Shown in pieces: positions 6,469-32,573 of a DNA stretch of 64,000 bases. This DNA is from Cognatundibacterium crateris (GTDB taxonomy: Bacteria > Pseudomonadota > Gammaproteobacteria > Burkholderiales > Burkholderiaceae_D): NCBI RefSeq assembly GCF_010078235.1, contig NZ_JAABOS010000003.1, forward strand, positions 124,001-188,000. Direction: 5' to 3'. The notes beneath the pieces were generated by a model that was not told the DNA's origin, ran no database searches, and worked only from the letters and a program-made list of their open reading frames with translations. The stretch's first letter is position 1, and every line of letters starts with the position of its first letter. Made by a program: the position numbers and the translations under genes.

Positions 6469-6729
6469 GATATTTCCTTGTGTGGTTGAATGATGTGCAC
6501 ATGATAGTCAGCCACGAAGCAAGAATCCAATGACATATTCAGATATCAAGTTATGTTATTTGTGAATGTCATTAAGATTTCACATTTCTGATGAATATTT
6601 ATTGCGTTGCACAAATAATCCGGGATTTGTACAAAATTATTGCAGCAAGACATGGTGCTGTAAGCAATACAAGACTGATAGTGGGAGGTGATGTTGTTGG
6701 GGTATGGGTACGTGAGGCATGACTTCATC

Positions 6730-6932
6730 AGGACTTACGCAAAACCGCCCCAGCGAGCTTATGGCTCCAGGTAGTGAACCCTGTCCTATGCGTACTGCTT
6801 TCGTCGCCAAGGTGTAGCCAGGCTTGCAGGCAACATGTAGCCTGCTGGAGTAACGGACATCGCTTGCCAGCGATATTTCCTATAGCACCAAAGGGCTGTT
6901 CGGCCTTGCCGGGACAATTTTGCGTAAGTCCT
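6730..6932. repeat. 203-bp inverted-repeat element, family with AGGACTTACGCAAAA ends
   Basis: The element begins AGGACTTACGCAAAA (6730-6744) and ends with the exact reverse complement (6918-6932), 15 perfect terminal bases. It has no coding sequence for a transposase and resembles a miniature inverted-repeat transposable element. Shorter relatives with the same ends occur at 18685-18772, 42105-42205 and 47267-47303. Confidence 0.75.
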
Positions 6933-6991
6933 GCTAAGAAGAAAAAAGGATGCCAGCCGTGAAACCGGTGACACCCTGACCTGGTTATATA

Positions 6992-13104: not shown

Positions 13105-13105
13105 T

Positions 13106-14163
13106 TAGGGCCTGTTAAGACTTAATTTCCCGGTGCATAGTTGATCGGGGTGAATGCATACGCCTTGTTCTCCGTGCGTACATAGCCCAGACCAGGGAAA
13201 GACAAATGCGCAGCGCCGATCAGGTCACCCGATTTGGCTGCCTGCGCGTAGGCCAGTTTGCGTTGGGCCGCAGCGGCCTTGCTGTCGCTGTCAAACTGTA
13301 TGGTCACGCCCGGGTTGGCAAACTGTACCGCTGCCACATGCATCAGATCGCCCCACAACACCAGATTCTGGCCTTTGCTGCTGATGGTGTAGATGGTGTG
13401 ACCCGCAGTGTGACCATGAGTAGCTGTGGCTTTGATGCCGGGCTGCAGCTCGGTATTGCCTTCAAAGGCCTTGAATTTGCCAGCCTTGATATAGGGATTG
13501 ATGGAAGCCATCGCACCCTGGAAAAAGCCTTTGCTGTCTTGCGGCGCTTTATCCAGATTGGCCTGGCTCAGCCAGAAGTCCACATCATGCTGATCCGCGC
13601 GCACTACCGCGTTAGGAAACACCATGCTGTCACCCTGCATCAGGCCGCCGACGTGATCCGGATGCATATGGGTGATGTAGATTTCATCGACCTGTTCCGG
13701 GCCGTAGCCAGCGGCTTTCAGATTCGCCTGCAATTTACCCAGGGTAGGACCAAACAGACTGCCGGCACCGGCATCGATCAGGATCAGCTTACTGCCGGTA
13801 TTGATCAGATAGCCATTGACCGAGGTTTCCAGCGGGCTGTGTTGATGGGACTTATGTAAGGCCTTGCTGACTTGTTCCGGGCTGGTATTGGTCAGCAGTT
13901 TATCGACCGGTAAGGCCACTGTGCCATCGGATAAGGCAGTGACTTCGAATTCACCAAGCATGGTGCGGTAATAGCCGGGGGCCGCAGTTTTGACCTGAGG
14001 AGCGGCGGCATAACTCTGACTTACTGGCAGCGCCAAGGCGGTCAGGATAGCAAATAAGCTGGTACTGAGTTGACGGGATACTGACATTCTTCATCCTTCC
14101 GAAAACGTGGTTTTCAAAACGCAGCCCTGCCGGACGGGTGGGCTTGCGGTGCTAACAGGCCCT
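13106..14163. repeat. hydrolase gene bracketed by degenerate ends of the AGGGCCTGTTAAC repeat family
   Basis: TAGGGCCTGTTAA at 13106-13118 and its inverted counterpart GCTAACAGGCCCT at 14151-14163 enclose the metallo-beta-lactamase-fold gene. The shared inverted core is about 11 bases (AGGGCCTGTTA), the same end sequence as the full-length elements at 20253 and 32305. The left end runs into the gene's stop codon. It may be a remnant element pair or a mobilised cassette. Confidence 0.45.
13122..14087 (-). CDS. secreted metallo-beta-lactamase-fold hydrolase
   Basis: A 321-residue protein with a signal peptide (to about residue 27, SYA/AAP). The metal-binding motif HMHPDHVGG (HxHxDH) is present, followed by later His residues (GHTAGH) and a metal-bridging Asp (LWGDLMH), so the active site looks complete. 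The overall pattern (TALSDGTVALPVDKL near the start) resembles the methyl-parathion-hydrolase/quorum-quenching branch rather than true beta-lactamases. Substrate not determinable: lactone or phosphotriester hydrolysis is only inferred. GGAAGGA precedes the ATG. The gene is bracketed by repeat ends. Confidence 0.85.
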   Translation of the reverse strand: MSVSRQLSTSLFAILTALALPVSQSYAAAPQVKTAAPGYYRTMLGEFEVTALSDGTVALPVDKLLTNTSPEQVSKALHKSHQHSPLETSVNGYLINTGSKLILIDAGAGSLFGPTLGKLQANLKAAGYGPEQVDEIYITHMHPDHVGGLMQGDSMVFPNAVVRADQHDVDFWLSQANLDKAPQDSKGFFQGAMASINPYIKAGKFKAFEGNTELQPGIKATATHGHTAGHTIYTISSKGQNLVLWGDLMHVAAVQFANPGVTIQFDSDSKAAAAQRKLAYAQAAKSGDLIGAAHLSFPGLGYVRTENKAYAFTPINYAPGN

Positions 14164-18684: not shown

Positions 18685-18772
18685 GGATTTACGCAGCTAA
18701 ACTGGCAAGGCAGGGCGAGGAAGGCAGTATCCGATTCCAGCCAGCACGCCGCCGTGGTTTGCGTAAGCCCTG
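18685..18772. repeat. 88-bp degenerate copy of the AGGACTTACGCAAAA repeat family
   Basis: The left end reads GGATTTACGCAG and the right end TTTGCGTAAGCCCTGA, imperfect inverted ends of the element seen intact at 6730-6932. The middle is shortened and rich in CCAGC. It lies just upstream of the Ig-like lipoprotein gene and may overlap its leader. Confidence 0.5.
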
Positions 18773-18804
18773 ACATGTCATCTTGCAACCTCCCCGGAGC
18801 CAGC

Positions 18805-20208
18805 GTGAACCCTTCCTTCCGTCTTGCCAGTATCGCCTTCTCTACGCTCAGCGCAGTAACACTGTGTGCCTGCGGTGGCAGTAGCAGTTCCAGTAGTTCC
18901 AACACAGCGCCCAACAGTGCCGTCAGTGTGAATGTGCCGGTACCGGCCACCGTGTCTGTCGGTGACCCGTTGACCTTTACTGGCAAGGCCTCCAGCAGCG
19001 CCGGTGCCATCACTAACTTGTTCTGGCAAATCGAAACCCTGACGCTGGGCGCTGATTCAGTGACCGCAGTCAGCAATGCGGATTGCAAAACCGTGACCAC
19101 CGACAGCAGCGGCACCAATTGCGTCCTGAGTCTCACGCCACCGGCTAAGCTGAGTTCGGATGTGACTTATAAACTCAGCTTTTTCGCGGGTGACGCCAAG
19201 GGAAATCAAAGTAATAGCTTCACCACGCTCAAAGTCTTACAGGCAGCCTCCATCACCAATAATCCAGTTGCTAAAGTCGGTGCGGATGCCACTGTGACTT
19301 CGGGTGACAAAGTCAGCCTGAGCTGTAGCGGCAGCGGCGGTACCCCTGCCAGCAGCGGCAATGCCTATGCCTATCAATGGGTGGTCAGTGATGCCGCCGG
19401 TCTGACCTTGAGCCTGACCAATCCTGCTACGGCAGCAGCCAGCTTAGTCGCGCCGGTGGTGACGCAGAGCACCACGGTGAAACTGCAATGCCGCGTCACC
19501 GATGACAAGCAGCGTACCGGCACAGCCATTCAGAGCATTACCATCAACCCTGTCGTCAAACCCACCGTAGTTCCCATCTCAACCAGCGGCGGCAATGTGC
19601 AGCCGGGTGCCAGCGCCAGTCTGGATGGCAGCAAATCCACCATGTACGATGTCAATGGCAAGGAAGTGACTGGCCAGGCGATGTATTTCCTGTGGCAGTA
19701 CAAATCCGGCCCGGCCGGTGCTACGCCGCTGACCATTTACAATGGCGGCACCAGTGTCGCCAGCGTGGTGTTTCCGGCCGTAGTGACGACCCCGACTTCC
19801 TACACCTTCACGCTGAACGTATCGACCGCGCCTATCTCCACCGATGGCAGTTCGGCTGACCCGGTCAAACAACGTGATGTAGCTTTCTTTGTCAGCGCCC
19901 TGCCCGCTATCAGCGTAACTTCCTACAATCTGGTGCAGTCCGTCAATAGCGGTGCCAGTGTGCAGCTGAAAGCAGAAACACCATCCAATACCAATTCGAC
20001 GGTGCCGATTTATTTTGGCTGGACCCAGATCAGCGGCCCAGCGGTGGCGCTGGCCGGTTCCGGATCGCAGATCGCGGGCTTTTTTGCACCAACGGTGACG
20101 GTGCCGACTACGCTGCAATTCCGTGTCTCAGCCGGTTATTATCCGGTGACGGTAGCCAACCCGGGTACCGCCAGTGCGGATCTGATTGTGCAGGTGTTAC
20201 CGAAGTAA
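18805..20208 (+). CDS. lipoprotein with Ig/PKD-like repeats
   Basis: About 467 residues from a GTG start with GGAG upstream; an ATG at 18775 is an in-frame alternative. A lipoprotein signal ends at L-C-A-C, followed by a GG(S)7 spacer. The rest is all-beta, Ser/Thr/Ala-rich and repetitive, with three to four domains. Each opens with a P-x-V-x-V-G-D/G-x-V/S-L pattern and has a central W or Y (FWQIET, YQWVVSD, FLWQYKSGP, YFGWTQISGP), typical of PKD/Ig-like folds. The WxxxSGP motif occurs twice. Probably an outer-membrane surface or periplasmic adhesion or binding protein. Specific function unknown. Confidence 0.75.
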   Translation: MNPSFRLASIAFSTLSAVTLCACGGSSSSSSSNTAPNSAVSVNVPVPATVSVGDPLTFTGKASSSAGAITNLFWQIETLTLGADSVTAVSNADCKTVTTDSSGTNCVLSLTPPAKLSSDVTYKLSFFAGDAKGNQSNSFTTLKVLQAASITNNPVAKVGADATVTSGDKVSLSCSGSGGTPASSGNAYAYQWVVSDAAGLTLSLTNPATAAASLVAPVVTQSTTVKLQCRVTDDKQRTGTAIQSITINPVVKPTVVPISTSGGNVQPGASASLDGSKSTMYDVNGKEVTGQAMYFLWQYKSGPAGATPLTIYNGGTSVASVVFPAVVTTPTSYTFTLNVSTAPISTDGSSADPVKQRDVAFFVSALPAISVTSYNLVQSVNSGASVQLKAETPSNTNSTVPIYFGWTQISGPAVALAGSGSQIAGFFAPTVTVPTTLQFRVSAGYYPVTVANPGTASADLIVQVLPK

Positions 20209-20233: not shown

Positions 20234-20542
20234 AAAAAAACAGCAGGCAGCCTAGGGCCTGTTAACATTTAAATTCCGTGTGCGAAAGGGGTAAAACAGT
20301 TGCAGGGCTAGGCGCATCCCGCGCAGCAGTGTGATCACTGTAAGCGGGATGCAACAACGCCATGCGGCTGTTTTACCCCTTTCCCTTTGGGTTCAAACCA
20401 AAACGCGTGCTGGACTGCGTTGCGCGTCTTGTCAGGGGCACCAGCCCTGACGGCGACACACGCCTTGCCAGCCCACGTTTTGGTTTGAACGCATCTCGGA
20501 ATTTAAATGTTAACAGGCCCTAAAAGCTGCCCGCTGTTTTTT
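20234..20542. terminator. bidirectional terminator hairpin apparently split by a repeat insertion
   Basis: The left arm AAAAAAACAGCAGGCAGC (20234-20251) and right arm GCTGCCCGCTGTTTTTT (20526-20542) are complementary apart from one mismatch, with A-run and T-run on the outer sides. Together they would form a classic two-way terminator between the convergent lipoprotein and DUF2721 genes. The 270-bp repeat element sits exactly where the loop would be. Confidence 0.6.
20253..20522. repeat. 270-bp palindromic element, copy A of the AGGGCCTGTTAAC family
   Basis: Terminal inverted repeats TAGGGCCTGTTAACATTTAA and complement enclose two long imperfect palindromes. The first pairs GAAAGGGGTAAAACAG with CTGTTTTACCCCTTTC around an inner GCATCCCGC/GCGGGATGC stem. 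The second pairs GTTCAAACCAAAACG with CGTTTTGGTTTGAAC around GTCAGGG/CCCTGAC. No reading frame of note. It is nearly identical to the copy at 32305-32573. Both lie between convergent genes. TA occurs at each outer boundary. Confidence 0.8.
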
Positions 20543-20554
20543 ATGCTGCGGCGA

Positions 20555-21022
20555 TCAGGATTGACGTGACAGACGGCGGATTTTATCGCGCTGATGCTGG
20601 CGCGACAGGGTTTTGGTGGCGACAAAAATCTCGCGCATGAAATAAATAAAACTGCCGATCAGCGAAAAAATCCCGCCTACGAATAAAGCTGCAATCCACT
20701 TATCCAGCGCCAGTCCGGTCGCATCACCGGTGAACAACAAGGCGATCACCAGACAGACCAGCAGGCCGGTGGTGGTGCTCAGGGTAATCGCACGGTTGAT
20801 CAGGTGGGAGCGCTGGTATAACTCTTCCAGTTCGGTTTCCAGATCTTCGGTGTGGTCAGGATTTTTTTGCAGTAATTCTTCCACCACCCTGGCGCGGTCA
20901 ATGATGCGCGCCAGGCGGCTGGTCAATACGCCCAATTTGGTGCCCACACCGGTCAGCAGGAAAACCGGCGCAATCGCCAGCTGAATAATATGGCTGACAT
21001 CACCAAGTTGCAGATTGATCAT
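20555..21022 (-). CDS. DUF2721-family membrane protein
   Basis: About 155 residues with three predicted membrane helices (near residues 8-28, 75-98 and 105-128) separated by a charged, helical segment (LTSRLARIIDRARVVEELLQ), the typical DUF2721 pattern. The function of the family is unknown. The start may be the ATG at 21022 or a GTG two codons upstream; GGATAGG serves either. It is convergent with the Ig-like lipoprotein and separated from it by the split terminator and repeat copy A. Confidence 0.8.
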   Translation of the reverse strand: MINLQLGDVSHIIQLAIAPVFLLTGVGTKLGVLTSRLARIIDRARVVEELLQKNPDHTEDLETELEELYQRSHLINRAITLSTTTGLLVCLVIALLFTGDATGLALDKWIAALFVGGIFSLIGSFIYFMREIFVATKTLSRQHQRDKIRRLSRQS

Positions 21023-21058
21023 AAACACCTATCCTTTCTTTCTTGTATAGTGCCTGCC

Positions 21059-21109
21059 TAGGGTCTGTTAACACTTAAATTTCTCGCAATTTAAATGTTA
21101 ACAAGCCCT
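21059..21109. repeat. 51-bp end-only derivative of the AGGGCCTGTTAAC family (copy C)
   Basis: TAGGGTCTGTTAACACTTAA is joined almost directly to TTAAATGTTAACAAGCCCT, that is, both ends of the larger element with nearly all the middle missing. It forms a near-perfect hairpin in the divergent gap between the DUF2721 gene and ygiD. Confidence 0.75.
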
Positions 21110-32304: not shown

Positions 32305-32573
32305 AGGGCCTGTTAACCTTTAAATTACGTGTGCGAAAGGGGTAAAACAGTTGCAGGGCTAGGCGCAGCCCGCGCAGCAGTGTGATCACTGTCAGCGGGA
32401 TGCAACAACGCCATGCGGCTGTTTTACCCCTTTCCCTCCGGGTTCAAGCCAAAACCCGTGCTGGACTGCGTTGCGTGTCTTGTCAGGGGCACCAGCCCTG
32501 ACTGCGACACGCGCCTTGCCAGCCCACGTTTTGGCTTGAACGCATCTCGCAATTTAAAGGTTAACAGGCCCTA
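32305..32573. repeat. 269-bp palindromic element, copy B of the AGGGCCTGTTAAC family
   Basis: Ends AGGGCCTGTTAACCTTTAAA and complement, with the same two nested palindromes as copy A at 20253-20522. Base differences are few and several are compensatory: the outer pair is AAC-CTTTAA with TTAAAGG-TT here against AAC-ATTTAA with TTAAATG-TT there, and CAAGCC/GGCTTG here against CAAACC/GGTTTG there. It lies between a terminator and the 3' end of dctA. Confidence 0.82.

Follow-up and report, generated by a model that had tools for sequence, protein, structure and literature searches.

Group IIC introns insert beside terminator hairpins by recognition of the hairpin, and insertion sequences such as ISPpu9 are said to insert in REP palindromes. 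Bacterial MITEs of the IS5 family form the class to which the element described here is most readily compared: like them it has no gene, measures about 270 bp, has inverted ends in common with IS5-family elements and is associated with duplication of a TA. Unlike them, it contains a double-hairpin core that is homologous across two classes with unrelated ends, its stems covary at 53 of 93 pairs, and its end-only remnants vary widely in their interiors. Small non-coding mobile repeats, often clustered, are also known from Streptococcus pneumoniae as RUP and SPRITE. SPRITE is described as terminator-like (PMC10969869).

Here we consider one copy of a palindromic element, copy A, within a 64,000-nucleotide stretch of Cognatundibacterium crateris DNA (the window). 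The element resembles RUP and SPRITE in being a small non-coding mobile repeat that is often clustered, whereas the terminator at copy A is a feature of the host, as empty sites reveal, and not part of the element. With group IIC introns it has in common that a mobile element lies at terminators, but it displays no clear preference for hairpins and has a parent with a DDE transposase. As in ISPpu9-type insertion, the sequence that copy A entered was palindromic; those insertion sequences occupy a particular repeat, whereas the target of the MITE is YTAR.

Results

Structure of copy A and its site

Copy A (20255-20520, + strand; 266 bp, GGG...CCC) is one of eight full copies of the element, 90-100% identical, in a genome of 4.3 Mb. 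It sits between convergent genes, the left one (18754-20208, +) having weak PKD/Ig similarity, with all matches below the families' cut-offs, and the right one (20555-21028, -) encoding a DUF2721 protein (PF11026, E=2.2e-36). The ends of the element (20253-20278 and 20497-20522) are 26 nt long and 100% complementary, and they enclose two inverted repeats. These are internal hairpin A (20284-20386, +; arms 20284-20308 and 20359-20383) and internal hairpin B (about 20388-20490, +; arms 20388-20413 and 20468-20493), the conserved core represented by model R1, of which hairpin A is an inverted homologue. Outside the element lie the 5' arm (20235-20251, +) and the 3' arm (20526-20542, +) of a bidirectional terminator, 17 nt and 94% complementary, with an A-run on the left and a T-run on the right. 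Both the arms and the element ends confirm the arrangement given in the preliminary description, in which convergent genes are separated by a two-way terminator whose loop holds a palindromic element.

Short, non-coding and bounded by terminal inverted repeats (266 bp, 26-nt ends), the element has the features of the MITE class. An Rfam search of the 64-kb window gave no match at the gathering score; one weak match, to an animal-type miRNA family, reached 27.4 bits where 100 are needed. A search of a plasmid collection gave no match.

The terminator without the element

A search with the DUF2721 protein led to proteins 99% and 98% identical in Undibacterium curvum CY22W and U. rugosum CY7W. 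In both species the copy A site contains no element and the two-way terminator is intact, with the loop GTAAAG in U. curvum and TCTT in U. rugosum. When the window flanks are joined without copy A they give the loop CTAAAA, which in alignment to U. curvum identifies the loop TA as the insertion point; the empty U. curvum loop retains a TA there. As two sister species have an intact terminator without the element, the insertion struck a pre-existing terminator, and the terminator is older than the insertion of copy A, or at least independent of it. The proposal that the terminator predates the element, together with the search for empty sites that was suggested alongside it, is thus upheld by empty, intact hairpins in two sister species. 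The element had also been placed exactly at the loop position; it does lie in the loop, but the insertion is at a TA near the 5' side, leaving AAA on the 3' side.

Parent transposon and target site

Of 42 Undibacterium genomes, 17 contained matches to the PF13340 transposase, and several of these matches lie between ends like those of the MITE and beside TA. A genome outside those 42 (G020) carries five elements with both ends, 837-856 bp including the TAs. Two elements whose ORFs were checked (L248 and L250) have two ORFs each, all passing the cut-off of NCBIfam NF033580 (IS5 family transposase), and their transposase matches PF13340 and PF01609, giving it the DDE domain of the IS5 family. 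These parent elements may belong to the IS427-like subgroup. The MITE has its ends in common with IS5-family elements of congeners, as befits a MITE. The window's own genome has a single PF13340 match, which contains an internal stop, and so no active helper was found there. In G020, the IS5-family element at L250 501-1337 has itself entered a GAACTCATTTCATAAA-type element, at the end of the latter.

We catalogued 122 elements in the fetched Undibacterium loci; removal of one that had no flank, and then of nine duplicates among the remaining 121, left 112 insertions, including 16 of IS size and 14 minis. YTAR was the site at 104 of these (CTAG 42, CTAA 26, TTAG 24 and TTAA 12) and other sequences at 8. 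The TA is kept on the left in 87/112 insertions and on the right in 93/112, consistent with the target-site duplication of a MITE, and in copy A these dinucleotides lie at 20253-20254 and 20521-20522. The element is therefore a MITE of IS5-family elements, with TA duplicated at YTAR.

Hairpins as targets

The preliminary description had suggested that single-stranded or hairpin DNA was the target, and that copies of the element might be enriched at terminators. We joined the flanks of each insertion and scored enclosure by a hairpin of score ≥10, using as controls 425 YTAR sites outside ORFs of at least 90 codons in the same loci, and 1444 YTAR sites overall, genes included. At score 10, 6 of the 112 insertions were enclosed, compared with 11/425 intergenic controls (p=0.12) and 24/1444 controls overall (p=0.017); against the intergenic controls, p ranged from 0.62 to 0.06 over cut-offs 8 to 15. 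A first catalogue with weaker duplicate removal had given 7/95 versus 8/334 enclosed. Enclosure by a terminator-like hairpin was seen for 3/112 insertions and 7/425 controls (p=0.35), while such a hairpin lay within 45 nt of 14/112 insertions in this Undibacterium set compared with 14/425 controls (p=4e-4). Insertion flanks fold better than controls (mean -11.2 versus -9.3 kcal/mol, p=4e-4) and are also richer in G+C (44% versus 39%).

A second set of 53 sites (3 of 56 having been dropped), mostly from other genera and comprising IS copies as well as eight Undibacterium loci, had 36 sites at YTAR; none of the 53 was enclosed by a hairpin and none had a terminator-like hairpin within 45 nt. With the sets combined and compared with the same Undibacterium intergenic controls, 6/165 were enclosed versus 11/425 (p=0.33), 3/165 versus 7/425 were enclosed by a terminator-like hairpin (p=0.56), and 14/165 versus 14/425 were near one (p=0.009). 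Most insertions have neither an enclosing nor a nearby hairpin. Hairpin enclosure is thus not clearly above that of intergenic control sites, the enrichment over intergenic target sites that hairpin targeting would produce being absent from these counts. We read the excess of nearby terminator-like hairpins in the Undibacterium set as survival in 3' intergenic gaps. The suggested link to terminators is seen in the Undibacterium set as proximity within 45 nt and not clearly as enclosure in the loop. The idea of hairpin DNA as target is unsupported, the ends, TA duplication and YTAR sites being those of an IS5-family transposon.

Other copies, minis and remnants

Copy B (32306-32571, +) is the same MITE and, in agreement with the preliminary description, starts 12 bases past the T-run of another terminator; it adjoins this terminator and is not inside it. 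The terminator of this locus is present in both sister species: in U. rugosum it stands without any element, and in U. curvum 13 bases remain of the left end after it. A 48-bp mini copy (21061-21108, +) has both ends and no core; the site is likewise a mini in U. curvum and holds a 229-bp copy in U. rugosum. By eye, orthologous minis in G017 and the window genome (L217/L220) lie between two terminator-like hairpins.

Across the 18 end-only rows (46-63 bp, some orthologous) there are at least 8 different interiors, so the core was probably lost repeatedly, and later mutation may add to the variety of interiors. One interior is common to five end-only sites, which makes a mobile mini form conceivable.

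Two decayed pieces of the element occur elsewhere in the window: a remnant of an end (13105-13130, +), the end-like piece being common to U. curvum and U. rugosum, and a second remnant (14148-14163, -), at a position where about 140 bp of the element are present in U. rugosum. Between 13105 and 14163 these remnants flank a gene of metallo-beta-lactamase fold whose best NCBIfam match, AidB lactonase, is below cut-off. We rejected the idea that this metallo-hydrolase gene (13122-14087) and two ends around it form a mobile cassette, given the roughly 140 bp of element at its right end in U. rugosum and the presence of the left end-like piece in U. curvum and U. rugosum as well. In G001 (L137 951-4965), two copies flank a gene that by eye resembles a catalase-peroxidase, and the second copy apparently interrupts a gene.

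The window also contains a second inverted-repeat element of 205 bp (6729-6933), with CAGGACTTACGCAAAA... ends. A relative of it lies in U. curvum (L178) between the Ig-like gene and the terminator of the copy A locus, and by eye a mini of the main family sits inside another element of this second type (L212/L214). A core in common with the inverted repeat at 6729-6933, suspected by eye, was dropped, as model R1 found no match there at E up to 1.

Spread of the core and its ends

Model R1 represents hairpin B; of the 46 distinct sequences of this hairpin, 32 were used to build it. The model also matches hairpin A on the opposite strand (E=1.4e-4), and the core thus consists of two related hairpins in inverted orientation. 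Among 145 genomes of the host family, 45 have a match to the core hairpin at E≤0.001, and they represent 19 of 44 genera, that of the window included; by our own count, and with E-values that are rough, matches below 1e-10 occur in 28 genomes of 12 genera. All 16 matches in the window's own genome fall in the eight copies.

In other genera the ends around the same core are either of the GGGCCTGTTAACA type or of an unrelated GAACTCATTTCATAAA type; no ends were found at 5 of 35 loci. For the transposons themselves, 10 of 15 loci had their ends inspected; in nine of the ten, the GAACTCATTTCATAAA-type ends are those of another PF13340 element, and the tenth (L336) has the GGGCCTGTTAACA type. The two kinds of ends thus each match their own PF13340-type transposon.

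For a tree of the core, 69 chosen loci were searched and gave 70 forward hairpin B matches, of which 67 were kept (the second matches of L137, L297 and L320 being left out); omission of L309, whose ends are unassigned, left 66 rows, with L289 and L313, each having one recognised end, kept under the class of that end. On the tree a single change, with support 100/99, separates class I (48 rows) from class II (18 rows), and repeated exchange of ends was rejected on this ground. Given this single split of the cores, the exchange of ends, or their divergence past the point of being recognised, was one ancient event.

Among the matches listed by a search of open-access literature for the end sequences, or for such repeats in the genus or its relatives, there was no description. 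The element family is widespread, and is without a description found in the literature searched.

Pairing of the stems

Of 63 full copies aligned, three were left out (two as orthologues and one as degenerate, or else as identical) and a further 11 were set aside so that the copies kept were of nearly equal length, giving an alignment of 49 copies. This contains 93 stem pairs, with 98.2% of cells paired, and the folded structure is strikingly well preserved across copies. Double-sided changes affect 53 of the 93 pairs (568 cells), compared with means of 32 pairs and 167 cells after shuffling and at most 19 pairs when the structure was slid, a control that favours the structure because the latter was derived from the same alignment.

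Within the 18 closest pairs of copies there were 55 one-sided changes (28 wobble, 27 mismatch) versus 11 double changes, where independence predicts 0.85 doubles. Per column, differences are about half as frequent at paired positions (77 in 186 columns) as at unpaired ones (67 in 83). Long-tract conversion between arms was rejected, as the double changes were isolated single positions in 11 of 11 cases in these pairs. In one copy (L106 1003-1293), the two arms of hairpin B carry mirror-image insertions of a 13-14 nt block, as would result from copying between the arms; this matching insert in a single copy runs counter to that rejection. The ratio of rare G-U to A-C events was 8:6 for the ends and 16:8 for the internal hairpins (p=0.15), counts that give no decision on RNA-level selection as a reading of wobble asymmetry. 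The matching of the arms is compatible with selection for the fold and also with correction of single bases while a hairpin is extruded.

Discussion

The insertion of copy A is very probably the work of ordinary transposition, in which a MITE of about 270 bp, mobilised in trans by an IS5-family transposase, entered a YTAR TA that happened to be in a terminator loop. The landing in the loop was most likely by chance. Direct support comes from the empty sites, the TA within YTAR, the ends that match the IS5 family and the lack of a clear hairpin preference. What weighs against it is that no active helper was found in the window's own genome, together with the excess of terminator-like hairpins near Undibacterium insertions and the better folding of insertion flanks.

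This account has to be weighed against other histories of the site. Had the terminator arrived with the element, its arms belonging to a larger composite, their contiguity with the element's palindrome would be explained; however, the same terminator stands without the element in two sister species, which refutes such an origin, and the flanks of the other seven full copies in the genome have no such arms, so we regard it as virtually untenable. Alternatively, the element could be ancestral in the loop and cleanly lost from U. curvum and U. rugosum. Losses are indeed known within the family and U. curvum retains the loop TA, but losses at other sites leave remnants of the ends and this history needs two clean losses at one site, which makes it very improbable. 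Even then, the terminator is independent of the element.

The remaining alternative concerns the choice of target rather than the age of the terminator. A transposition machinery that preferred hairpin or single-stranded DNA, with terminator loops as its true targets, would account for copy A in a loop, L007 in a terminator stem and L122, L104, L210 and L231 in hairpins, as well as for the proximity to terminators in the Undibacterium set (14/112 versus 14/425) and the excess of enclosure over all controls (6/112 versus 24/1444, p=0.017). Against this, enclosure does not clearly exceed that of intergenic sites (6/165 versus 11/425, p=0.33; 0/53 in the second set), nor does enclosure by terminator-like hairpins (3/165 versus 7/425, p=0.56), and the ends are of IS5-family type and accompanied by TA duplication. 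We therefore consider a hairpin preference very improbable.

Under the favoured reading of ordinary transposition at YTAR, an IS5-family transposase would recognise the MITE ends (GGGCCTGTTAACA...) and mobilise the MITE in trans, and the MITE would then insert at the TA of a YTAR site in the loop of the two-way terminator, with duplication of the TA. An insertion in the loop leaves the two terminator arms able to pair, and the predicted fold of copy A with the terminator (MFE -197.1 kcal/mol, z -18.6) has the arms paired around the folded element. Pairing of the arms would run on into the end-stem of the element, so that termination may survive the insertion. A copy in the loop could be tolerated since both arms stay paired on the folded element, and, judged from folding, retained termination could help such an insertion persist.

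A further and rather doubtful possibility is that the double-hairpin core is itself selected and recognised by its structure, as a DNA hairpin or as RNA, and has spread through the host family in company with end sequences from two or more unrelated IS5-type transposons. If true, the core would be a passenger with exchangeable vehicles.

For the locus, the specific claim is settled in that the loop insertion of copy A requires no special targeting. For the family, this MITE superfamily opens two questions to testing: whether the arms of palindromic mobile DNA remain matched through selection for the fold or through correction within extruded hairpins, and whether transposon ends can be exchanged around a conserved core.
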